Shown here one piece after another: positions 3,616 through 56,184 of a stretch of 64,000 bases of DNA. The translations under genes and the position numbers were made by a program. The notes beneath the pieces were generated by a model. That model was not told where the DNA came from. It saw only the letters and a program-made list of their open reading frames with translations, and did not search any database. This DNA comes from Chiridota heheva (lineage: Eukaryota; Echinodermata; Holothuroidea; Apodida; Chiridotidae): contig JAIGNY010000690.1 in the NCBI GenBank assembly GCA_020152595.1, positions 1,042,001-1,106,000 on the forward strand, in the 5' to 3' direction. Each line of letters starts with the position of its first letter. The stretch's first letter is position 1.

Positions 3616-3626
3616 GCGTGTCCTCT

Positions 3627-4955
3627 GAACTATTCGTTAATTACCAGATTGTGGAAGCCTTGGTGAACTATTCGTTAATTACCAGATTGTGGAAGCCTTG
3701 GTGAACTATCCGTTCATCACCGGATTGTGGAAGCCTTGGTGAAATATTTGTTTATCACCAGATTGTGGAAGCCTTGGTGAACTATTCATTATTACCAGAT
3801 TGTGGAAGCCTGGGTGAACTATTCGTTTATCACCAGATTGTGGAAGCCTCGGTGAACTATTCATTTATCACCAGATTGTAGAAGCTTTGGTGAACTATTC
3901 ATTTATCACTAGATTGTGGAAGCCATGGTGAAGTATTCATTTATCACCAGATTGTGGAAGCCTTGGTGAACTATTCATTTATCACCACATTGTAGAAGGC
4001 TTGGTGAACTATTTGTTTATCACCAGATTGTGAAAGCCTTGGTGAAGTATTCCTTTATCACCAGATTGTGGAAGCATTGGTGAACTATTCATTTATCACC
4101 AGATTGTGGAAGCCTTGGTGAACTAGTCATTTATCACCAGATTGTGGAAGCCTTGGTGAACTATTCATTTATCACCAGATTGTGGAAGCCTCAGTGAGGT
4201 ATTCGTTTATCACCAGATTGTGGAAGCCTCGGTGAACTATTCGTTTACCACCAGATTGTGGAAGCCTCGGTGAACTATTCATTTATCACCAGATTGTGGA
4301 AGCCTCAGTGAACTATTGATTTATCACCAGATTGTAGAAGCCTCAGTGAACTATTCGTTTATCACCAGATTGTGAAAGACTCGGTGAACTATTCATTTAT
4401 CACCAGATTGTGGAAGCTGTGGTGAACTATTCATTTATCACCAGATTATAGAAGCCTTGGTGAACTATTCGTTTATCACCAGATTGTGGAAGCCTTGGTG
4501 AACTATTCGTTTATCGCCAGATTGTGGAAGCCTTGGTGAACTATTTATTTATCACCAGATTGTGGAAGCCTTTGTGAACTATTCGTTGATCACTAGATTG
4601 TGAAAGCCTAGGTGAACTCTTCATTTATCACCAGATTGTGGAAGCCTTGTGAACTATTCATTTATCACCAGATTGTGGAAGCCTTGGTGAACTATTCATT
4701 TATCACCAGTTTGTGGAAGCCTTGGTGAACTATCCATTTCTCACCAGATTGTGAAAGCCTTGTGAACTATTCATTTATCACCAGATTGTGGAAGCCTTGG
4801 TGAACTATTCATTTTTCTCTCATTCTCCCCCTGGTCTCTTTCCTTCCTACCTCTAAAATGACCTGACCTCTCAGGCACAATTTGACCTTCGTTGTCGTGG
4901 TGCCGTTAAGACCTCATCAAACAAACAAACATCACCAGATTGTAGAAGCCTTGGA
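3627..4955. repeat. 38-bp tandem array (~31 copies) interrupted by a LINE tail
   Basis: The unit resembles GAACTATTCATTTATCACC followed by AGATTGTGGAAGCCTTGGT. Copies run 3627-4814, are interrupted at 4815-4930 and resume at 4931 exactly where the unit left off. Confidence 0.95.
4815..4930 (+). mobile_element. 5'-truncated LINE 3' end (family RH) inserted in satellite
   Basis: 116 bp matching the 3' end of the LINE at 36755-38395 (TCATTCTCCCCCTG... CACAATTTGACC... CATCAAACAAACAAAC). The (CAAA)n tail abuts the resumed satellite unit. Confidence 0.9.
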
Positions 4956-11186: not shown

Positions 11187-14100
11187 GTAAGAGGGAACTT
11201 TGCTTTATAGTCCTACTGGGATACCTTCTGTAGGTGGTACTGCCGAGGAGATGCACCACCATTCAACCAATTTATTGGCTAACCCAATATCTTGTACAGG
11301 TGAAAGTTATCTATGCTTGCCTAAGGATAGGCCACACCCATTTCTCACACTCATTCTATCTCAATGCCCCTCATCCATCTCTGTCACAACTGCAAGGAAC
11401 AACTCAGCTAAGCATGTCCTTCTAGATTGTCTCCTATTCACCCTCTCGAGATCATTACTCCCTCTTAATTGATCACAGATCTCTCTTTTTTATATTAAAC
11501 TCCCCCCCCCCCTCCCCTCACTCCGCCTGTCCACACACACCCTCATATGTCATATCAACCACAGCATCATCATCTGATACCTCCTCCCTCCAATGGAACA
11601 CTATGCGGTCTCCTTAAATAACCTTTTATACTACTGTTAAAAACTCAGTTCCTGACAGTTTCAAATAATTTAACCTCTATGACCCATTTTGTCGCCATGC
11701 CAACCAACAGAAGTCCCATCAATCAGTCTTATTTGACTTATCATGCATTTTAAAATTTCGAATTTATTGAAATATTTTAAATATCACAATTTGACTTCTT
11801 TATATGTCCAGAAAGTAAATTTTAAACAAGATTATATGACCATTGCAGTTAAAGAATTTTGTTATCTTTTTTCAGAACTTACTTCATTGAATTCCTTGTT
11901 TTTTACCATGACATTTGACATGTCCCTATTTTCCCATAACAGCAAATTGCCATATGATGTGTCAACAGAACAAGCCTTGACACACAAAGAGGTTGTGGAA
12001 GTCATCGGGGAGTCAGCTAAAACGTTGGAAAATGTAGCAGAAAAATTCCTCAATGCCATTATCAATGCCGTGGACATGATTCCGTAAGAATTGATTCATC
12101 TTGACGTTGATTTTTACTTGGGGTAGAAGTTAGTATAAATGTAAAACTGTGTGCCAAATTTAGAAGGATCTTTTTTGAAACGTAATGTGAATGCTATTGA
12201 GAATGTTATTAAGGTACCTAAAATTAGGAACTTATAATTGAGAAATTAAGATAATTGCTTGAAATTGAAGTACTTAAGATTGAGATACTTGAAATTGAGA
12301 TACTTGAAATTGAGATACTTGAAATTGAGATACTTGAAATTGAGATACTTGAAATTGAGATACTTGAAATTGAGATACTTGAAATTGAGATACTTGAAAT
12401 TGAGATACTTGAAATTGAAATACTTGAAATTGAGATACTTGGAATTGAGATACTTGAAATTGAGATACTTAAAATTAAGGTACTTAAAATTGGGGTACTT
12501 AGAATTAAGATACTTGAAATTGAGATACTTGAAATTAAGATACTTAAAATTAAAATACTTCAAATTGAGGTAGTTGAAGTTGAGTCATTAGAAATTGAGA
12601 TACTTAAAATTGAGGTACTTGAAATTGAGGTAGTTGAAATTGAGATACTTAAAATTCAGATACTTGAAATTGAGGTACCTAAAATTGAGATACTTGAAAA
12701 GATACTTAATTGAGATACTTAAAATTGAGATACTTGAAATTGAGATTGACATTGAGGTACATGAAATTGAGGTACTTGAAATTGAGATACTTCAAATTAA
12801 AATACTTCAAATTGAGGTAGTTGAAGTTGAGTCATTAGAAATTGAGATACTTAAAATTGAGGTACTTGAAATTGAGGTAGTTGAAATTGAGATACTTAAA
12901 ATTCAGATACTTGAAATTGAGGTACCTAAAATTGAGATACTTGAAATTGAGATACTTGAAATTGAGATACTTGAAATTGAGATACTTGAAATTGAGATAC
13001 TTGACATTGAGGTACATGAAATTGAGGTACTTGAAATTAAGATACTTAAAATTGAGATACTTAAAATTTAGGTACTTGAAATTGAGGTACTGTACTTGAT
13101 ATTGAGGTACTTGAAATTGAGGTACATGAAATTGAGAATTGAAATTGAGATACTTGAAATTAAGGTTCATGAAATTGAGGTACTTGAAATAAAGATACTT
13201 GAAATTGAGAGACTTAAAATTGAGGTACTTGAAATTGAGGTACTTGAAATTGAGGTAGTTGAAATTGAGGTACTTGAAATTGAGATACTTCAAATTGAGG
13301 TATTTCAAATTAAGATATTTTAAATTTTCTTTACATGTTAACTTTATTTTGGGGTTTGAAGCTCGTTGGATTAATATAATGTCATTCTGGAAGTAGTTTG
13401 ATATAATTGAACGTCTGGCACTATTTGACCTTTGACAAGTGTTGTCATTCAATTATTCTTTTCCATAGGTTTGGTATCAGGTACATTGCAAAAGTGTTGA
13501 AGAAATCGTTGCATGAAAAGTTCCCAGATGAGCCTGAGGAGGACATATTAAAGGTCAGTCACCTTTGGCCTTACTACCACACTGCTGCACATTCATATCT
13601 AATTATGATTTAAATTAATATTGATTCTAATTACACATCAAATGAAAAATTAGGATTATAGAAGGATGAAATTTACTGGTTAAGACATTTTTCTGAGGTC
13701 GATTAAAAGATGAAACTAGACCTGTTATTCACTATTATTTTAAGTGTTTCGCAGAAAGGAAATTTTCCAGCTTGCGTAGTTCTCATGATTTTGTGTAAAT
13801 ACTACACTGTCAGCAATGTGTTTGAGTCGAAATGGTATCCCCCTGTATTCTCAGCCAAGAGTGTGAAATGCCAGATATTGTGTCAACGTGGAGATTAAAA
13901 TACACTAAATTCCTACGTTTCTGATTGGTCAAAATATTTCCACACTCACCAAGAATCCAATCTCAATTACTGCCCGGAAGTGACGTTACTAGTGTGTATA
14001 AGATTTATTGTTGACAGGTCAAGCAGATTTATTGTTGACAGGTCAAGCAGATTTATTGTTGACAGGTCAAGCAGATTTATTGTTGACAGTTTAAGCAGAT

Positions 14101-17100
14101 TTATTGTTGACAGGTCAAACAATTCATCTTGAGCAATTACCACCCGGAAGTAATGTTACTAGTATGTATCAGATTTATTGTTGACAGGTCAAGCAGATTT
14201 ATTGTTGACAGGTCAAGCAGATTTATTGTTGACAGGTCAAGCAGATTTATTGTTCACAGGTCAAGCAGATTTATTGTAGACAGTTTAAGCAGATTTATTG
14301 TTGACAGGTCAAACAATTCATCTTGAGCAATTACCGCCCGGAAGTAAAGTTACAAGTATGTATCAGATTTATTGTTGACAGGTCAAGCAGATTTATTGTT
14401 GACAGGTCAAGCAGATTTATTGTTGACAGGTCAAGCAGATTTATTGTTGACAGGTCAAGCAGATTTATTGTTGACAGGTCAAGCAGATTTATTGTAGACA
14501 GTTTAAGCAGATTTATTGTTGACAGGTCAAACAATTCATCTTGAGCAATTACCGCCCGGAAGTAAAGTTACAAGTATGTATCAGATTTATTGTTGACAGG
14601 TCAAGCAGATTTATTGTTGACAGGTCAAGCAGATTTATTGTTGACAGGTCAAGCAGATTTATTGTTGACAGGTCAAGCAGATTTATTGTTGACAGGTCAA
14701 GCAGATTTATTGTAGACAGTTTAAGCAGATTTATTGTTGACAGGTCAAACAATTCATCTTGAGCAATTACCGCCCGGAAGTAAAGTTACAAGTATGTATC
14801 AGATTTATTGTTGACAGGTCAAGCAGATTTATTGTTGACAGGAAGCAGATTTATTGTTGACAGGTCAAGCAGATTTATTGTTGACAGGTCAAGCAGATTT
14901 ATTGTTGACAGGTCAAGCAGATTTATTGTAGACAGTTTAAGCAGATTTATTGTTGACAGGTCAAACAATTCATCTTGAGCAATTATCGCCCGGAAGTAAA
15001 GTTACAAGTATGTATCAGATTTATTGTTGACAGGTCAAGCAGATTTATTGTTGACAGGTCAAGCAGATTTATTGTTGACAGGTCAAGCAGATTTATTGTT
15101 GACAGGTCAAGCAGATTTATTGTTGACAGGTCAAGCAGATTTATTGTTGACAGGTCAAGCAGATTTATTGTTGACAGGTCAAGCAATTCATCTTGAGCAA
15201 TTACCACCCGGAAGTAATGTTACTAGTATGTATCAGATTTATTGTTGACAGGTCAAGCAGATTTATTGTTGACAGGTCAAGCAGATTTATTGTTGACAGG
15301 TCAAGCAGATTTATTGTTGACAGGTCAAGCAAATTTATTGTTGACAGGTCAAGCAGATTTATTGTTGACAGGTCAAACAATTCATCTGGAAACGAGACTC
15401 CCTCTTTTCTACTCCTGGATAAAATATCATGAAGTTCTTTTGTTTTCAATGGTATCCCTGTTTCAAGTTGTTGTTTCTTTATGTGATTTCTTAAGGTTCC
15501 TATAATGCATGTAATTGGATTTCTTCTTTGCAGATTGTTGGAAATTTGATCTACTACAGATATATGAATCCTGCCATCGTAGCGCCAGACGCCTTCGACA
15601 TTATTGACATCGGTGTCGATAAAGGCATGTCAACTGAACAGAGGAAAAACTTGGGCTCAGTGACAAAGGTGCTTCAGACAGTCGCTTCTGGAAAAGAAGT
15701 AAGAATCTGAATCAATTTGTAGAGTTACAGGAGATATCTTGTGCGTGTGATTAGATTAACCTCAGGTTCTTGGTATTTTATTGCAAATTGTTAATTTTTC
15801 GTTACAAATGTAAAGGTTACTTGTCAGTTACTGATTACCAGTCCGTTACTGGTCACCAGTCCATTACTGGTTACCAGTCCGTTACTGGTTACCAGTTCGT
15901 TACATAATTAAATTCTAAGTCCTTGTGCTCGTTTATAAGTCACTCAATAATTTGGCTCCTATTTATTTAACTGAAATGTTTTATTTGATTAATACCAACT
16001 ACTTCTTGCATTCTCAAAGTAAAATCTCTCTCAAAGTCCCCCAAAGCAAAACAACATTTGGTGATCGCTCCCTGAGTGTTTTTGGCCCTAAGCTCTGGAA
16101 TGCTGCCCTCCATGTATTCAATTTGCCCGTCTCTCAACATTTAAAAATAACAACTCAAGACCAACCTTTTTAAAGAAGCCTTCGATGCACCCAGCAATTT
16201 GTATAAACATTGTTGTTTTCTTGTTTCGTTTCCCCCTACTGCCTTGTTTGTTAAGCGCATATAAATAGTACTTTAACTAGAAAATGCACCATATAAATTC
16301 CATATGTTATTATATTATAGATACCTTCTTGGGAGGTGATTTGCAGAGCGGAACATATTCCCATAGTGGTGTTGGTCCTTAAATAGTCAAACTATTCACA
16401 AGATTGTTTTGAGAACATGGAGTCATGAATTGTTCACTTTCCTTCCTCCAGTTTTTGGCAGAATAATATTATTTTAGCACTTAACACTCATTTGCATTTA
16501 TTTCTTTTTTCAGTTCAGTGGAGAAAATGAACATTTATCATCCTTGAATGCATTTGTAAGGAAGAGTTTTCCAAAATTCAAGTAAGTATTTGATATTTCT
16601 GTACTGTTCTTCATCATGCCTCCCTTTACAACCATATTTTGCCTCCTCTCCCACTCCCCTCTCTACCCTTTTCTACCGATGCACTTTCTCTCTCGATCCC
16701 AGCTTCCTGGCATTTAGTCCCCCCGTATCTCTCAGTCTCCCCCTGTTTTCTTTTCTTCCTACCTCTGGAATGATCTAACCTTTTAGGCACAATTTGACCC
16801 TCGCTGTCGTGGTGCCATTAAGCCCTCTTCAAACAAACAAACAAACATCGTTCTGTTGTTGTATCAAAGGAGCTCCCGGTGGTCAAAAAGTGAGGGCGCT
16901 CTTTTGCTAAGTCAAGGAATTTTAAAATAAACAGTTTTAAGTCAAGAAAATTTTAAAATAACACACTTCAAAGTCAGGGAATTTTAAAATAACACAGTTC
17001 TAAGTCAAGGGAATTTTAAAATAACACAGTTCTAAGTCAAGAAAATTTTAAAATAACACTTCAAAGTCAAGGGAATTTTAAAATAACACAGTTCTAAGTC

Positions 17101-20100
17101 AAGGGAATTTTAAAATAACACAGTTCTAAGTCAAGGGAATTTTAAAATAACACAGTTCTAAGTCAAGGAATTTTAAAATAACACAGTTCAAAGTCAAGGG
17201 AATTTTAAAATAACACAGTTTTAAGTCAAGGGAATTTTAAAATAACACAGTTCTAAGTCAAGAAAATTTTGAAATAACACACTTTAAAGTCAAGGGAATT
17301 TTAAAATAACACAGTTCTAAGTCAAGGGAATTTTAAAATAACACAGTTCTAAGTCAAGGGAATTTTGAAATAACACTGTTCTAAGTCAAGGGAATTTTAA
17401 AATAACACACTTCAAAGTCAAGGGAATTTTAAAATAACACACTTCAAAAAGGGAATTTTAAAAACATTTCTAAGTCAAGGAATTTTAAAATAACACAGTT
17501 CTAAGTCAAGAAAATTTTGAAATAACACAGTTCTAAGTCAAGAAAATTTTGAAATAACACACTTCAAAGTCAAGGGAATTTTAAAATAACACAGTTCTAA
17601 GTCAAGGGAATTTTAAAATAACACAGTTGCATCAAGGGAATTTTAAAATGTTCAGTTCTAAGTCATGGGAATTTTAAAATAACACAGTTTTAAGTCATGG
17701 GAATTTTAAAATAACACAGTTCTAAGTCAAGGGAATTTTAAAATAACACAGTTCTAAGTCAAGGGAATTTTAAAATAACACAGTTCTAAGTCAAGGGAAT
17801 TTTAAAATAACACAGTTTTAAGTCAAGGAAATTTTAAAATAACCCAGTTCTAAGTCATGGGAATTTTAAAATAACCCAGTTCTAAGTCATGGGAATTTTA
17901 AAATAACACAGTTCTATGTCATGGGAATTTTAAAATAACACAGTTCTAAGTCATGGAATTTTAAAATAACACAGTTCTAAGTCATGGGAATTTTAAAATA
18001 ACACAGTTCTAAGTCATGGGAATTTAAAAAAAACACAGTTCTATTTTTTTTTTTTCTCGTGTTGTTAAAAAATTACTCAAGTATTCATAAAAATAATTTA
18101 AATAATTTGAACATTTGTATGAAAGGTGTTTAGTTGCATCACATGCTTGGAAAGTGTTTGAATAATCTGGAGACTCAAGAAATATACGCCCTCACTTTTC
18201 AACATTCTTAGACAAAACTGTTGGAACAATTTCAGCGTTGTGAGAACTACATATGTTATAGTGTTATGTTTCTTTAATGTAATGTTTTTTCTTTAACAGA
18301 GAATAACTTTTCCACCCCCATTTTAATGTTGGATTTTTTTTTTTATTTAATGCTAATAATGTCGACATTGAATGGAGAACTATTCAACGGATGACATCAC
18401 AAATTTGCATATTTTGTTGATTATATAAGCCTGAGATAGTTTGTAATGTTTCTGAAATAGAGGAAAGATTCAACATTAACAATGGTCAACATTGGACTGG
18501 GAAGGGGAAGGGAGGTTGGTTAAGATAATGAGGTAAGGGATGAGGATACTGGTAGTGTCATTGAAATTATAACAATGTTCTTAAAATGATAAAATATTAA
18601 TTACAAATAAAAGAATAGAGATTGAAGAAGCAATAGAAAAAAATTCCAGCAATTATGATTTCTGAATGTGGAATAATTTGCAATAGAAAAGTTGGTTTAT
18701 GAAAAGCATCACATATTTTCATGAAGTCTTTCAACGAGTTTTGTCCGAGATTGTAGGTAAGGATTTACATAGGAAAATGGCTGAAGAGCTATTCAACGGA
18801 TGACAACACAAATTTGCATATTTTGTTGAATAAATAGGCCTGAGTATTACAAAAAATATAAAGTAGTAGATTCTGAAAAAGTTTGACGAGAATATTGACT
18901 ATTATCATGATTCTTATTGGATTTTAAAGTAATTCAGCTAATATTTCCATTTTCTGTCCATTAATCACAGCAATTGTTGCTTAAATCATTTTGGTTGACT
19001 CTAAACTTGCTGTTTTTTCCCAACAGGGAGTTCTGCGTTAGAGTTTGTGACGTTCCTGAGCCAGAGGAAAGATTCAACATTGATGAATATTCTGATTTTG
19101 TCAATCCAACCAAACCCATTGTCCTCATGTCTGTTGCAGAGATCCTTGATACACATGCGGTCAGTCTTACCTAGTCCATTGTATTATTTATTGTTCTTTT
19201 TTACTCAGGAGTGGCTCAGTGGTTCAAGGATTAGTTCACTGGTCAAGCATGTCAATCTTTAATGAAAGAGAGACTTCAAAAGAAACAAAGTGGTGAAGAA
19301 AGTATTCAAGCATCGTATTCCATTTAGAAGATATTTTAGTTTATAGCTCTTGTCTTACCTGTGTAGCGATGACTAGTGTAGTAAGTCTACTATGGAAGTT
19401 GACGTCTCATCCTCACATTCTTAACAATTGTTAATGTATTTTAAAGAAAGTTTATTGATTTTTTTTCACTATTCAAATTATTTTTCCACGAACTTTCCTT
19501 AGGTGGTATATTATAAATACCCTTCCAAGATTCAGTTTGACTACTTTTTTGACATATCCCATGGTTTTTAAGCCACAAAATTGCAGGACAAAATATGAGG
19601 AAATCTGAGGCTATGACATCACTACTGGTCTGATTTAAGTCGTTTCTACACAAACGATACCAATCTTAAAACTTAAATATCTTAATGGAATAAGATTTTT
19701 AAATGCTTTCGTTACCATTGTGTTTCTTTTGAAGTCCTCTTTCATATAAGATGGCCTCTTTCATATAAGATGGACATGCTTGATCTCTAAACTAATCCTT
19801 TAATGGAATAAGATTTTTGAATGCTTTCTTCACTATTTTGTTTTTTTGAAGTCCTCTTTCATATAAGATGGACTTGCTTGACCCTTGAACTAATCCTTTA
19901 AGGAGTCATGGCCATGTGAAAGGTACCGGGTTCGACTCGGGCTACGAGCACTGCATTGTGTCCTTGAGACAGACACTTTACTCTAATTGCTCTCAGTCCA
20001 CTCAGCTGTAAAATACAGAGTACCAGCTTTGCTGGGAATTTGACCTGGGGTTGAAGTTCAGGGGATTCATGTGCTTTCTTAATGCCAAGGAAACAGGAGA

Positions 20101-50500: not shown

Positions 50501-53500
50501 AATTATTTCAAATGCCCTAACTTTTCGACCTTTCACACATTATTCCCTGCAACCAAATAATAACTATCAATTGACCTCTCTGAGCTAGTTGATTGACAGT
50601 TTTTTCAACAAAACACCACACTAATTTGCCTAGCAATAAAATATGTGTAACCAAGAAGGGCAAAAATCATACGGGATACTGGTACAGTACATCTAGCCGG
50701 CGGCGCATGCTATGCAGTCAATGCTATATACTACACAAAACAAATTTCTGCACACACAGACTGAGTGACGACAAGATGGTGAACAAAAATTGCACCTACA
50801 GGCTTTGTAAATTCAATTTCGGTTACCCAAAATGGTTTGCAAACAGATTTTTGTTTATTACTTTTGCTAAAAATTCTAAAGATCTGATGAAGTGCCATAA
50901 ATGGATCAAAACTTGCAGCAGGCCACAAGATCATCTAAATGTCAACGCATTGGTCATGCATGATCGCGGGTTTGAGGTTTGTTTGCCCCACGTAAATACC
51001 GCGTTGCTATGGTGGGCGTGGCCTATTCTGTACTCAGAGAGGTTAATTACAGCAAGCAAGACTATACATTACCTGTTGCACTCTATGATGGTTTTCAAAA
51101 TCTTCTTTTTCTTTCTTCTTGTTTCTGACATCTTTTTTATACTGATTAATGCACGATTGCTGTGAATATGAACAGGATTTGAACTTTTCTTAAAACAGAT
51201 CATTTTTCAAATTAGTACTATGACAGTATGTTGATAATCGCGATCTCGTGATATTGCTTTATCCAGGATATCAAAATCACTCTGAACAACATATTTACAT
51301 CTACACTGCATAAAAAAACATATTTACATCTACACTGCATATTATAACAACAATTTGTGAAACACAATTTCAGAAACATTTTCAAGTGAATAAAATTTTA
51401 ACAGAATATTTGCAGCAAATCGGATTCTTTTATGCTTCCATTCCTCAGATCTTCACGATATGGTGATATATCGCGATTTTGTGCTCGAAAATCGATATAT
51501 CTAATTTAGTTCTATTAGATATATCTAATTTAGTTTAGAAATAGTTCTCATGGATAGCTATTGGACGTTTTATCTTTTTGCAAAAAGTTGTTAATGAGTG
51601 GAATGGTTTGCCTGAGTGGGTAGTTAGCTCCAATTCTGTTCACTGAATTGCATATTGTGAAGTTCACAATCGGTCCTGTATGTCAAAGATGAATATGAAT
51701 ATTCATGTCCAAAATAATTTGTTAGGAAAATGATTGCCCCACTTTGCAGTGCAGTGTTCATGTAACAATTTAAAAAAGATTAAAAGAATCTAATGGACTG
51801 TGTTGTTTATGGCTGTGATTTGAGAATATGTAATGTCTCAGTGCCTTGTAACACAGGTTTACAGGCTTCAAAGAAGAACAGGTGGGCGGAGATGGACAAC
51901 ATTGGTCTCTTGATCCTCCTTTATACTTTCTCATCTTTAAAAAGCACAGTGCACTTTAAATAATCCATCAACAACTTTGCTTCCAAATGTGTGTACATCG
52001 TAGCATCTATTGGACAAAGTGCATCAGCAGCATTCGATAAACTCACTGAAACGACAAGCCAGACCCCACCCCAAGCATAATTCAGCAATAGAAACCACTC
52101 TTGACTGGTTTCAAATCAATTTCGAATTAAATAAGCAGCTCAGGGAAAATATACTGATGTTATTTTTTCCTTATTTCATCTTTCGAACTCTTCACTTCAT
52201 CTTATACTGGTCCTGCCTTGCTGCTCCTTAGTTGAAGCAGCCATAGTTTCCGAGTTAAAGTGGACCAAAGTTTGAAGAAGTTTTAATGTAAAACTACTCA
52301 CATTATCTTATACTACATACCTTGTTCCCTTTGAGTTGGATAGTCCCTAAATTACATCAAAAACAGCCATAGCTTCCAAGATAAGCTAACAAAGCTTAAA
52401 GAAGTTTTAATGTAAAACTCTTCATGCCATCTTATACTAGTCAAACCTTGTTCCCTCTGAGTTGGATAGTCCCTAAATTACTTCAAAAACAGCCATAGCT
52501 TCCAAGATAAGCTAACCAAAGTTTAGAGAAGTTATAATGTAAAACTCTTCATGCCATCTTATACTGGTCATACCTTGTTCCCTCTGAGTTGGATAGTCTC
52601 TAAATTACATCAAAAACAGCCATAGCTTCCAAGATAAGCTAACCAAGGTTTGAAGAAGTTTTATTGTAAAACTACTCACACCATCTTATACTGGTCCTAC
52701 CTTGTTGCTTTTGAGTTGAATAGTCCCTAAATTACATCAAAAGCAGCCATGGTTTCCAAGATAAGCTAACCAAAGTTTGAAAAAGTTTTAATGTAAAACT
52801 CTTCATGCCATCTTATACTGGTCATACCTTGTTCCCTCTGAGTTGGATAGTCTCTAAATTACATCAAAAACAGCCATAGCTTCCAAGATAAGCTAACCAA
52901 AGTTTAGAGAAGTTATAATGTAAAACTCTTCATGCCATCTTATACTGGTCATACCTTGTTCCCTCTGAGTTGGATAGTCTCTAAATTACATCAAAAACAG
53001 CCATAGCTTCCAAGATAAGCTAACCAAGGTTTAAAGAAGTTTTAATGTAAAACTCTTCATGCCATCTTATACTGATCCTGCCCTGCTGCTCCTTAGTTGA
53101 AGCAGCCATAGTTTCCGACTTAAAGTGGACCAAAGTTTGAAGAAGTTTTGATGTAAAACTCTTCATGCCATCTTATACTGGTCATACCTTGTTCCCTTTG
53201 AGTTGGATAGTTTCTAAATTACATCAAAACAGCCATAGTTTCCAAGATAAGCTAACCAAGGTTTAAAGAAGTTTTAATGTAAAACTCTTCATGCCATCTT
53301 ATACTGGTCATACCTTGTTCCCTAAATTACATCAAAACAGCCATAGCTTCCAAGATAAGCTAACCAAAGTTTGAAGAAGTTTGAATGTAAAACTCTTCAT
53401 GCCATCTTTTACTAGTCATACCTTGCTGCTTCGGAGTTGGGCCTTCTTCTTGTTGATGCGAGTCAGTTTGGACGAGAGCTCCTGAATCCTTTTCTTCTTC

Positions 53501-56184
53501 TGTTGCTCTTCCTTCGGGATGGCTGATGACTCCTCCCCAAAATCCTCCTCCTCTAACTCACTAGGACTTTCATATGCGTCAAAGAATTCATCAATATCCT
53601 GCAGATCTGGGAAAAATCAAGTAAACTTTGTTCAAATTCAACACATTCTGTAAAGGATGTCTACATCTATCATTCTAAAGAGTTCTATCAACTGCTTTGA
53701 TGTTTTAGGTGGTCGATATCTGAATTGCATCCATGACATGGTATTATCTGAATAGCATCCATGACATGGTAAAATCTGAATTGTATCCATAACATGGTAA
53801 TATCTGAATTGCATCTATGACATGGTATTATCTGAATAGCATCCATGACATGGTAATATCTGAATTGCATCCATGACATGGTAATATCTGAATTGCATCC
53901 ATAACATGGTAATATCTTAATTGCATCCATGACATGGTAATATCTTAATTGCATCCATGACATGGTAATATCTTAATTGCATCCATGACATGTAACATCT
54001 GAATTGCATCCATGATATGGTAATATCTGAATAGCATCCATGACATGGTAACATCTGAATTGCATCCATGACATGGTAATATCTGAATAGCATCCATGAC
54101 ATGGTAATATCTGAATTGCATCCATGACATGGTAATATCTTAATTGCATCCTAACATGGTAATATCTGAATTGCATCCATGACATGGTAATATCTGAATA
54201 GCATCCATGACATGGTAATATCTGAATAGCATCCATGACATGGTAATATCTGAATTGCATCCATGACATGGTAATATCTGAATAGCATCCATGACATGGT
54301 AATATCTGAATTGTATCCATGACATGGTAATATTCTAATTGCATCTATGACATGGTAATATCTGAATTGTATCCATGACATGGTAACATCTAAAATGCAT
54401 CCATGACATGGTAATATCTTAATTGCATCCTAACATGGTAATATCTAAATTGCATCCATGACATGGTAATATCTGAATTGCATCCATAACATGGTAATAT
54501 CTTAATTGCATCCATGACATGGTAATATCTTAATTGCATCCATGACATGGTAATATCTTAATTGCATCCATGACATGTAACATCTGAATTGCATCCATGA
54601 TATGGTAATATCTTAATTGCATCCATGACATGGTAATATCTTAATTGCATCCATGACATGGTAATATCTGAATTGCATCCATGACATGGTAATATCTTAA
54701 TTGCATCCATGACATGGTAATATCTGAATTGCATTCATGACATGGTAATATCTGAATTGTATCCATGACATGGTAATATATGAATTGCATCCATGACATG
54801 GTAATACCTTAATTGTATCCATGACATGGTAATATCTGAATTGCATCCATGACATGGTAATATCTTAATTGCATCCATGACATGGTAATATCTGAATTGC
54901 ATTCATGACATGGTAATATCTGAATTGCATCCATGACATGGTAATATCTGAATTGCATCCATGACATGGTAATATCTAAATTGCATCCATGCCATGGTCA
55001 TATCTGAATTGTATCCATGACATGGTAATATCTGAATTCCATCCATGACATGGCTGTATAACATTTGAAGGAAACCTGGTCCACTTCATCATTAATAACA
55101 ATAGTCATTTGTGTGGCTATTATTGGTACTGTTCATGCTTTGTTTTCATTTTTTCATCCATCGAATGATTTCTAGAATCAGTTTTGTTGATTATTTTGAG
55201 GCCAGAAAACAATTGACCTCTCTGAGTTACTTGATTGACAGCTTTTTTCAACCGATTACTGCACAAATTTGCCGAGCAACAAAATTTGCGAAACTATGTG
55301 GGGGAAAAAATCCTACATGGTACTGGTACAGCACAGCTAACTAGCAGTCAATGCAATATACTGCACAAAACAAATTTCTGCATACACAGAATGAGTGACA
55401 ACAAGATGGTGAACAAAACTTGCGCCTACGGGGCCCACTACAAGCTTTGTAAATCCGATATCCCTTACCCAGAATGCTTAGCAAACAGAATTTTGTTTAT
55501 TACTTTTGCTAAAATCTCTAAAGATCCGGAGAAGTGCCATAAATGGATCAAAACTTGCGGCAGGTCACATGAACATCTAAATGTCAATGCATTGGTCATG
55601 CATGATTGCACATTTGAGGTTTGTTTGTTCCACCTAGTTACCACATTGCTATAATGGGCGTGGCCTATTTCTGTACTCAGAGAGGTCAATTGTATAGAGT
55701 TCTTTTCATGCCAGAAAGTCATTGTACCTCCATGCAATAGTTTTCCATGGGTTTAACACTCCATTTAAACTCCACACTCCACCATACTCATCCTTCCTTC
55801 ATTCCAGATTTCCGCCAAACTTTTTGTTGCCTGATGGGTAACCAGTCCTCAAAATGTACATTTAGCCAAGTTTCATACATTACAACAATTCCGTAGATCA
55901 TTGACTACAACGCAAGAAAATGCATAATTCTTATTATAGCTCAACAATAAACAAAAGCGCTTTCATCGAATGACAACAAAATTTCAAATAATTGATCAAT
56001 CTTTGTGAGCTTGCGTACCTGCAAGTTCTGCTTTCACTGCAAGCAGCTTCTGATGGACGTTCTGTTCCTGCTCCTGCAAGATGTTCAGCTGTGTGTCGTA
56101 AAGCTTCTGCTGCAGCTCAAACGTCTCTTCCTGTAATCTGGCTACCTCCCTCTGGAATGACGAGCCCTCATCTAAGCACGCAAG
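44330..56184 (-). CDS. WHAMM/JMY: WHAMM/JMY-like actin nucleation-promoting factor, C-terminal ~397 aa (7 exons, 5' partial)
   Basis: Minus-strand exons, in transcript order, are 56184-56019, 53606-53422, 51159-51073, 49485-49390, 48019-47878, 47421-47120 and 44544-44330. All have AG/GT borders and matching phases except for one missing base in the polyproline exon. Domain order is a long coiled coil (ELQQKLYDTQLNILQEQEQN), EFFDAYESPSELEEE (the family's EFYDAYE-type junction), a second Lys/Glu-rich coiled coil ending ERRKTMERLRSYQL, a basic Ser-rich linker starting KYPSPK, polyproline, one clear WH2 motif, a connector helix and an acidic tail with a Trp five residues from the end. Known WHAMM/JMY proteins activate Arp2/3 through WH2-connector-acidic modules and act on membranes and, for JMY, in transcription. 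The N-terminal part was not found, so WHAMM cannot be told from JMY; invertebrates may have one ancestral gene. Confidence 0.88.
45475..46105 (-). mobile_element. 5'-truncated LINE 3' end (family RH)
   Basis: The complement reads FPKTLSAIKPLIASLVRDRW, QTSWDSQIDKKLHVIQPTIQ, IGHTHLTHSHLLIGSP and SLYNHI, matching 37790-38180. It then continues with the shared tail to (CAAA)n at 45475-45485. It sits in the last WHAMM/JMY-like intron, in sense orientation. Confidence 0.9.
46430..46560. repeat. TA/CATA-rich microsatellite
   Basis: Imperfect (TATACA)n and (ATAT)n. ORFs through it are artefacts. Confidence 0.9.
47120..47421 (-). CDS. WHAMM/JMY: WHAMM/JMY-like exon 6 (polyproline), frameshifted
   Basis: Acceptor TCGTTTTAG, donor GTATGT. 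Entering in phase, it reads VKAPQPQTGQGDAPPTPPPP then PPLAAPP. The polyproline run then continues only in another frame, to GLPRLFIPKKADLKAPAPKA and GFNPMDIINARKTLVKRDHT. The switch sits in an imperfect CCA-repeat near 47339-47341, where one base is missing. With 302 bases the downstream phase fails; with one more it fits the WH2 exon exactly. Profilin-binding polyproline is expected before the WH2 in this family. Confidence 0.82.
47878..48019 (-). CDS. WHAMM/JMY: WHAMM/JMY-like exon 5 (basic Ser/Lys linker)
   Basis: Acceptor GCTTTCATAG, donor GTAAAG; 47 codons plus one base. It begins KYPSPKTIQPQKYQPP and continues as a Lys/Arg/Ser-rich low-complexity linker ending RPATSSS. The correct frame differs from the longer ORF in the same place; it is set by phase 0 from the previous exon. 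An alternative donor a little downstream would keep the same phase. Confidence 0.82.
48326..48435. mobile_element. piggyBac-like MITE, copy 1
   Basis: TTAA-CCCTTACTCTACC ... GGTAGAGTAAGGG-TTAA, 110 bp including both TTAA target copies. The TIRs are perfect. Confidence 0.88.
48561..48651. mobile_element. piggyBac-like MITE, copy 2
   Basis: TTAA-CTCTTACTCTACC ... GGTAGAGTAAAGG-TTAA, 91 bp. The interior shares TGCCCCATCTTTGAC with copy 1, 125 bp away. Confidence 0.86.
49390..49485 (-). CDS. WHAMM/JMY: WHAMM/JMY-like exon 4 (ERRKTMERLRSYQL)
   Basis: Acceptor ACGAAAAACAG, donor GTAAGA, 32 codons in phase 0. RRDEKAAEEERKKAHLEEER then RKTMERLRSYQL resembles the family's E..R.KTL.RLR.(F/Y) end of the coiled coil. 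A 30-bp array of acceptor-like motifs lies about 145 bp upstream. Confidence 0.9.
49631..49932. repeat. 30-bp minisatellite (10 copies) upstream of a WHAMM/JMY-like exon
   Basis: The unit is TAAACCACTAAGATAACTAC plus AAAATTAAAA, with two alternating variants in the first part. On the minus (gene) strand each unit offers TTTTAATTTTGTAG or TTTATTTCTGTAG, which look like 3' splice sites. Confidence 0.93.
50008..50150 (-). mobile_element. 5'-truncated LINE 3' end (family RH)
   Basis: GAGGGCTTAATGGCACCACA ... CAAATTGTGCCCAGAGG ... GTAGGAAGGAAAGAAAACAG is the complement of the tail shared with the four other family RH copies. Confidence 0.88.
50340..50530. mobile_element. TIR element family B, short copy without minisatellite
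   Basis: The left end GGCCTAAAAATGAGGGGG and the complement of the right end GGTCGAAAAGTTAGGGC are related to the ends at 16882 and 18203. The interior TTCTTGAGCCTCAAGAATAT...GCATGTAATG aligns with the complement of 18120-18185. Confidence 0.65.
50568..51049 (+). mobile_element. THAP-domain TIR element, copy 1
   Basis: The left TIR CAATTGACCTCTCTGAG and right TIR CTCAGAGAGGTTAATTA bound a 482-bp element ~75% identical to 55210-55692. From the ATG at 50776 it encodes MVNKNCTYRLCKFNFGYPKW, then KCHKWIKTCSRPQDHLNVNA and FEVCLPH. The C-x4-C, central W and C-x2-H fit a THAP zinc finger. No catalytic transposase domain is present. The open frame runs on past the element into the antisense of a WHAMM/JMY-like exon, which is fortuitous. 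Confidence 0.78.
51073..51159 (-). CDS. WHAMM/JMY: WHAMM/JMY-like exon 3 (coiled coil)
   Basis: Acceptor CATATTCACAG, donor GTAATG, 29 codons in phase 0: QSCINQYKKDVRNKKKEKED then FENHHRVQQ. A Cys near the start followed by a Lys-rich helix suits the family. A THAP-coding transposable element ends about 24 bp past the donor. Confidence 0.85.
52190..53445 (-). repeat. ~126-bp tandem array of an exon-intron junction (~10 copies)
   Basis: Units contain, on the minus strand, CCAACTCAGAGGGAACAAG|GTATGACCAGTATAAGATGG. This matches the end of exon 53422-53606, CCCAACTCCGAAGCAGCAAG|GTATGACTAGTAAAAGATGG. CCATCTTATACT recurs near 52199, 52430, 52553, 52681, 52807, 52935, 53061, 53169 and 53295. The array starts at the exon itself and fills 1.2 kb of the following intron. 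Confidence 0.9.
53422..53606 (-). CDS. WHAMM/JMY: WHAMM/JMY-like exon 2 (EFFDAYESPSEL)
   Basis: Acceptor ATTTTTCCCAG, donor GTATGA. It encodes DLQDIDEFFDAYESPSELEE, an acidic stretch, then KKKRIQELSSKLTRINKKKA and QLRSSK. The EFYDAYE-like motif followed by a basic coiled coil is the most diagnostic WHAMM/JMY segment here. The donor and the last ~20 exon bases are the start of the homology with the ~126-bp tandem array that lies immediately downstream. Confidence 0.92.
53705..55060. repeat. 28-bp minisatellite (~48 copies)
   Basis: The unit is CATCCATGACATGGTAATAT plus CTGAATTG. Variants include TTAATTG and AATAG. It begins ~100 bp upstream of a WHAMM/JMY-like exon. ORFs on the minus strand are artefacts. 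Confidence 0.96.
55210..55692 (+). mobile_element. THAP-domain TIR element, copy 2
   Basis: The 18-bp TIRs are perfect: CAATTGACCTCTCTGAGT and ACTCAGAGAGGTCAATTG. From the ATG at 55404 it encodes MVNKTCAYGAHYKLCKSDIP, then CHKWIKTCGRSHEHLNVNAL and FEVCLFH. A 12-nt in-frame insertion relative to copy 1 widens the first Cys pair. The coding part matches the C-x-x-G..CKSD...RWIK.CGR.H..LNV pattern of invertebrate THAP proteins as I recall it. No transposase core is present, so it is non-autonomous. Confidence 0.82.
56019..56184 (-). CDS. WHAMM/JMY: WHAMM/JMY-like exon 1 of window (coiled coil)
   Basis: On the minus strand the acceptor CTTTCTCTGTAG precedes 56184 and the donor GTACGC follows 56019. 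It has 55 codons plus one base. LACLDEGSSFQREVARLQEE is followed by TFELQQKLYDTQLNILQEQE and QNVHQKLLAVKAELA, a continuous amphipathic coiled coil. The final G joins AT of the next exon to give Asp. Confidence 0.88.

Follow-up and report, generated by a model that had tools for sequence, protein, structure and literature searches.

We confirm that the end of one exon of an actin-regulating, JMY-family gene in the sea cucumber Chiridota heheva, together with the splice signal behind it, has been copied ten times in tandem into the intron that follows. The array lies in a stretch of 64,000 nucleotides that we analysed as a whole and refer to as the window (G000:C686:1042001-1106000; the genome assembly has 3,744 contigs and totals 1.10 Gb).

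The JMY-family gene and the studied exon

A genome-wide profile search detected the Pfam JMY family at one genomic place only, the gene of the studied exon, where both genome matches (2 of 2) are two further JMY exons on the same strand just upstream of the window (C686:1110980-1111378 and 1107025-1107180). The in-window upstream exon alone scores 17.4 bits over Pfam JMY positions 193 to 247, which falls short of the cut-off of 27, and when joined to the next two exons it reaches 27 bits, just at the cut-off, over profile positions 193 to 262. This joined match extends into the studied exon (53422 to 53606, minus strand, 185 nt), which is supported by it and by an open reading frame; its first codon is split with the previous exon (G|AT), and its last codon is whole. 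The exon ends in AAG|GTATGA, and we predict the true 5' splice site (last exon base plus GTATGA; 53416 to 53422, minus strand) at a point where the intron continues in frame as GTA TGA, i.e., valine and stop. This 3' end was placed by reading frame and donor score, and a second GT within the exon (53562, CTA|GTGAGT) scores nearly the same (7.09 versus 7.98). The next exon (51073 to 51159, minus strand, acceptor AG at 51161-51160) continues in phase with 29 codons. Downstream, the gene has a proline-rich exon and then an acidic C-terminal exon, neither of which has a Pfam match; presumably, these fit the WHAMM/JMY layout. The joined JMY exons found nothing useful in the PDB (best E 0.47). For a tektin exon of the same genome, the closest solved tektin is chain 8snb, which we take to be a sea urchin sperm tektin (283 bits versus 175 for the second, 118 of 143 residues identical), and no lancelet tektin is among the matches. 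On this evidence alone, the source is likely an echinoderm. A COX1 search aimed at the species had no match; a search for mollusc haemocyanin had none either, and since no control gave a signal it is uninformative.

Ten boundary copies directly behind the true splice site

The donor-bearing minisatellite (52186 to 53421, minus strand) comprises the true donor and ten copies spaced 104 to 127 bp apart, and the similarity of the last copy fades around 52186. A preliminary description of this DNA had proposed that the exon's own 5' splice site is repeated about ten times in its intron, in an array that begins at the exon and runs downstream, and this is what we find directly behind the true boundary at 53422. 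Its units of about 126 bp do form a tandem array, though the spacing is really 127 bp in five of ten cases and 104 to 126 bp in the others (in order: 108, 126, 106, five times 127, 126, and 104). Tandem Repeats Finder (TRF) reports one array in three rows (52238-53440 with period 254, 52238-53439 with period 381, and 52238-53074 with period 127), and the 11 boundaries, true and copied, are in register. The array has one full-length match in the assembly.

All copies are on the minus strand and are given here in order from the exon, each with its last "exon" base. Copy 1 (53308 to 53316; 53314) reads AAG|GTATGA and lacks the exon-tail part, copy 2 (53182 to 53206; 53188) has exon tail and GTATGA, and copy 3 (53076 to 53100; 53082), which follows a short unit, joins the exon tail to a GC donor, GCAGGA. 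Exon tail and GTATGA recur in copies 4 (52949 to 52973; 52955), 5 (52822 to 52846; 52828), and 7 (52568 to 52592; 52574), and between 5 and 7 stands copy 6 (52695 to 52719; 52701) with GTAGGA, which scores above the true donor; the sequence CAACTC..AAGCAACAAG|GTAGGAC, previously noted near 52695, is indeed present at 52701. The exon tail is followed by a weak GTTTGA in copy 8 (52441 to 52465; 52447), by GTATGT with the top matrix score in copy 9 (52315 to 52339; 52321), and again by GCAGGA in copy 10 (52211 to 52235; 52217), which also follows a short unit and just behind which the array stops. In total, the ten copies carry GTATGA five times, GCAGGA twice, and GTATGT, GTAGGA, and GTTTGA once each. 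The earlier picture of every unit holding the last 20 or so exon bases plus GTATGA thus needs trimming: about 19 bases recur in nine of ten copies, copy 1 has no exon part, and GTATGA is exact in half of them.

Copies 1 to 9 are mutually 75% to 98% identical. The highest value, 98%, links the units of copies 4 and 7, which lie 381 bp apart, and the resulting 381-bp higher-order repeat points to several units having been exchanged together.

The match reaches beyond the donor consensus into the exon

The similarity to the exon tail covers about 19 bases, with 14 to 15 of 20 positions identical in nine of ten copies (7 of 20 in copy 1), and drops to only 4 to 7 of 20 in the 20 bases farther upstream. 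Several alignments in a self-comparison of the locus likewise extend 18 to 19 bases into the exon, and even copies 3 and 10, despite their GC donors, have AGCAGCA in common with it. Could this similarity be nothing but the donor consensus, next to an unrelated minisatellite? Copy 1, with only a donor and an intron part, would suit such a reading, but the alignment of the units with the exon boundary, a check that the preliminary description had called for, goes well beyond a bare consensus: among the 16 bases before AAG, 11 to 12 are identical to the exon in nine copies (4 in copy 1), whereas none of 186 AGG[TC]A sites on both strands of the rest of the window exceeds 8 of 16. Of all other positions, 3 of 125,182 reach 12 of 16. 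Register and length of the match already refute the consensus-only reading, to which we attach next to no credence, and the register control rules out chance donor resemblance.

Make-up of the repeat unit

The common unit consists of about 19 nt of exon tail, about 19 nt of donor and intron start, and about 88 nt of an element fragment. From about 19 nt past the donor onward, it aligns to a dispersed repeat, a fragment of which thus accounts for most of its length. Nearly all genome matches of the unit core (24 of 25) lie elsewhere, at 75% to 85% identity (a lower bound), and 7 of these 24 were aligned. These aligned loci (L002-L008, around 1380-1720) represent a dispersed family from which the unit's core derives; some family members carry an inverted ATTACATC/GATGTAAT motif, and the family is perhaps a fold-back element. 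An origin of the exon tail itself from the element was rejected, given that the unit there agrees with the element consensus at 8 of 19 bases but with the exon at 15 of 19, in 19-base strings chosen by eye. Locus L008 and the array units have CTCAGA in common, so the duplication may have been joined at a short stretch of microhomology.

Boundary-spanning arrays in the gene and the genome

Of the 13 splice edges predicted for the JMY-family gene, a single one is duplicated (a count that leaves out a 14th row, the stop codon, and includes some acceptors placed to within a base or two). Beyond this gene, we surveyed 51 tektin and kinase loci (all 21 tektin matches, one of them below the family cut-off, and 30 of 134 kinase matches) as well as 80 of 120 kinesin matches. 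This survey covered the match ends and about 400 or 1,500 nt of their flanks, and it may therefore have overlooked cases. The survey's self-comparison detects the studied array, and among the 131 other exon matches it revealed no clear boundary-spanning array, seven of the eight flagged loci (all but L055) having been inspected. It flagged 3 of the 51 loci (L018, L055, and L057) and 5 of the 80 (L068, L069, L070, L077, and L104). L069 and L077 proved to be AT-type simple repeats and L104 AAG-type repeats past the exon, the 28-bp array of L070 adjoins its exon rather than lying inside it, and the duplication in L018 is about 20 nt outside the match. In L057 (1941-2564), a kinase-like reading frame has a perfect 314-bp tandem duplication at its 3' end with no repeated donor; this duplication may be recent or an assembly artefact. 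L055 has a second stretch at 57.9%, perhaps a neighbouring kinase.

TRF arrays come within 40 nt of the match end at 5 of the 80 kinesin loci (L061, L068, L081, L124, and L130), and none of these repeats the exon edge. Read by eye, the minisatellites of L068 (648-1051, 42 bp), L130 (574-664, 15 bp), and L124 (552-921, 35 bp) begin close behind a donor that is not itself repeated, at distances of about 5, 8, and 20 nt, and the array of L061 leaves about 6 nt free in front of the acceptor. In the window, 25.7% of the sequence lies in arrays with a period of at least 7, compared with 9.4% in the 80 kinesin-exon loci. The arrays of the window include 3626-4814 (38 bp), 12258-13326 (15 bp), 14001-15376 (24/218 bp), 16907-18043 (32 bp), and a 28-bp minisatellite of about 48 copies (53716-55053) in the intron just upstream of the studied exon, which ends about 110 nt before the acceptor and does not repeat this acceptor edge. 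Because arrays cover these shares of the sequence and the 131 matches gave no clear boundary-spanning case, arrays near exons are common and the capture of a boundary is rare.

Relation to known boundary minisatellites

Two amphioxus studies describe "mirage" minisatellites, i.e., tandem duplications of exon-intron boundaries for which normal splicing is reported, in Adh3, the globin genes BflGb6 and BflGb9, and TnC, with PGBD5 likened to them (PMC3087553, PMC3902484). Many of their units carry splice signals, either exon end can be affected, and unit lengths are 10 to 72 bp (Adh3), 60 and 108 bp (PGBD5), or 150 to 160 bp (globins) (PMC3087553, PMC3902484). Three structural criteria of mirages apply to the JMY array: it is a tandem minisatellite (TRF periods 127, 254, and 381; 11 boundaries in register), its unit spans an exon-intron boundary (nine of ten copies include about 19 exon bases, a match backed by the controls above), and many units keep AG/GT signals (GT in eight of ten, a score no lower than that of the true donor in seven of ten). 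Mirages are further described as leaving regular splicing undisturbed and as unstable in length between haplotypes or in somatic tissue; their described hosts are cephalochordates, which records where they occur and is no structural trait. Judged by its sequence, the JMY array is a real example of this little-known kind of repeat. As in the amphioxus mirages, a tandem unit spans the exon-intron boundary and many units carry splice signals; unlike them, the JMY array sits in a JMY-family gene of an echinoderm host, has ten copies, and is mostly made of a dispersed repeat.

The human gene 6-16/IFI6 reportedly has a donor minisatellite with a unit of about 12 bp, some repeat donors of which are said to be really used. 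Like the JMY array, it consists of minisatellite units each with a donor at an exon end, though its unit is about 12 bp compared to about 127 bp for the JMY array. Human duplicated genes also have variable internal tandem repeats at exon-intron boundaries, and these minisatellites at exon edges resemble the JMY array and can change splicing; they differ by an average unit of 30 bp, recent paralogs, and transcript support (PMC2812944). Donor copies are not described in passages on an earthworm metallothionein intron array (PMC12783039) and on intronic minisatellites of C. elegans (PMC4039745). Among the titles listed in literature searches, none reports a donor-duplicating minisatellite in an echinoderm, and the JMY array appears to extend such minisatellites to this phylum.

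Donor strength and the consequence of decoy use

We scored the GT sites with a 5' splice-site position matrix, in which the true donor reaches 7.98, five copies the same value, GTAGGA 8.24, and GTATGT 9.60, and the remaining three copies 3.95, 1.89, and -0.43. Seven of ten copies are thus at least as strong as the true donor and eight of ten have GT, so part of the proposed row of about ten strong decoys is real; the number was overstated because two copies have GC and one GTTTGA. Of the 6,891 GTs in the window, array included, 1.0% score at least 7.98. Among five other donors of the gene, four score lower (6.26 to 7.93) and one higher (8.93). U1 duplex energies are -5.7 kcal/mol for the true donor and for the five copies identical to it, -9.2 for GTAGGA, -8.4 for GTATGT, and -4.7 to -4.9 for the three weak copies; at four of the gene's five other donors (-7.1 to -9.4), U1 pairing is stronger than at the true donor. 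Sea urchin donors are reported to have a consensus A at +3 (PMC2721852), as found in GTATGA.

Because the exon closes in phase 0 and the intron opens with GTA TGA, retention up to any of the copies (10 of 10) adds one valine and a stop. The suggestion that the array drives alternative 3' exon ends therefore fails, at least for coding: with a stop at the second codon for every decoy, useful alternative coding ends are excluded, and a truncated protein or decay is left. Titration of U1 by one locus, also suggested earlier, seems unlikely on stoichiometric grounds.

A tolerated expansion or a functional element?

The uniform stop at the second codon, together with seven decoys that score at or above the real donor, would suit a regulator in which use of the copies, at a regulated rate, puts a premature stop into JMY mRNA and thereby sets the protein level. 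Yet the stop is already present in the GTATGA of the true donor and needs no selection, and the lancelet cases are reported to splice normally (PMC3087553, PMC3902484); we regard such poison splicing as unlikely. The array might instead be the source of a future intron or microexon, as most units have an AG (GTAATTTAG) before exon tail and donor, comparable to the intron-gain model proposed for lancelet globins (PMC3087553). Seven of the eight ATTTAG sites in the array sit 26 nt before the GT of an exon-like tail by coordinates, and with pyrimidines at 11 to 12 of 19 positions these AGs are no worse than the real acceptor (12 of 19), but a 26-nt piece is out of frame and we find this role very improbable.

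A third function would pair U1-binding donors with poly(A) signals. An A(A/T)TAAA hexamer stands 33 to 35 nt behind the donor in six of ten copies (52186-53421), and there is none within 70 nt of the true donor or in the other 1,031 nt of the intron. If the array were a U1-gated intronic polyadenylation switch, limiting U1 would make transcripts end in the array and yield JMY without its C-terminal actin-nucleating region, with the stop supplied by GTATGA. The hexamers represent few independent events because they belong to the element fragment and were multiplied along with it, and the odds of such a switch seem to us slimmer still.

We consider it probable that the array is a passive mirage expansion of the boundary segment that is tolerated without a dedicated function, with the exon-proximal donor normally used. 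Beyond the observed homology, tandem array, and mixed unit, we infer an order of events in which a segment reaching from about 19 bases inside the exon over the 5' splice site into a fragment of the dispersed repeat was duplicated in tandem and afterwards expanded, through unequal exchange or slippage, into ten further donor copies. Splicing would normally pick the exon-proximal donor through exon definition, and the array would be tolerated because this donor wins; decoys would cause at most a little mRNA with an immediate stop that is removed by decay. Passive expansion is favoured by the recurrence of exon tail and donor in register in nine of ten copies, by a unit core from a dispersed family in a minisatellite-rich genome, by the 381-bp higher-order repeat, by the single affected splice edge among 13, and by the normal splicing reported for amphioxus genes of this structure. 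Against it stands that seven of ten donors are at or above the full matrix score despite unit identities of 75% to 98%, and recent homogenisation may account for these kept scores as well as selection does.

The locus offers a clean natural test of how the spliceosome chooses among near-identical donors in a row: seven full-score decoys follow the true site at distances of 108 to 1,101 nt. If the true donor is used almost exclusively, as reported in lancelets, position and exon definition would decide, not donor sequence.
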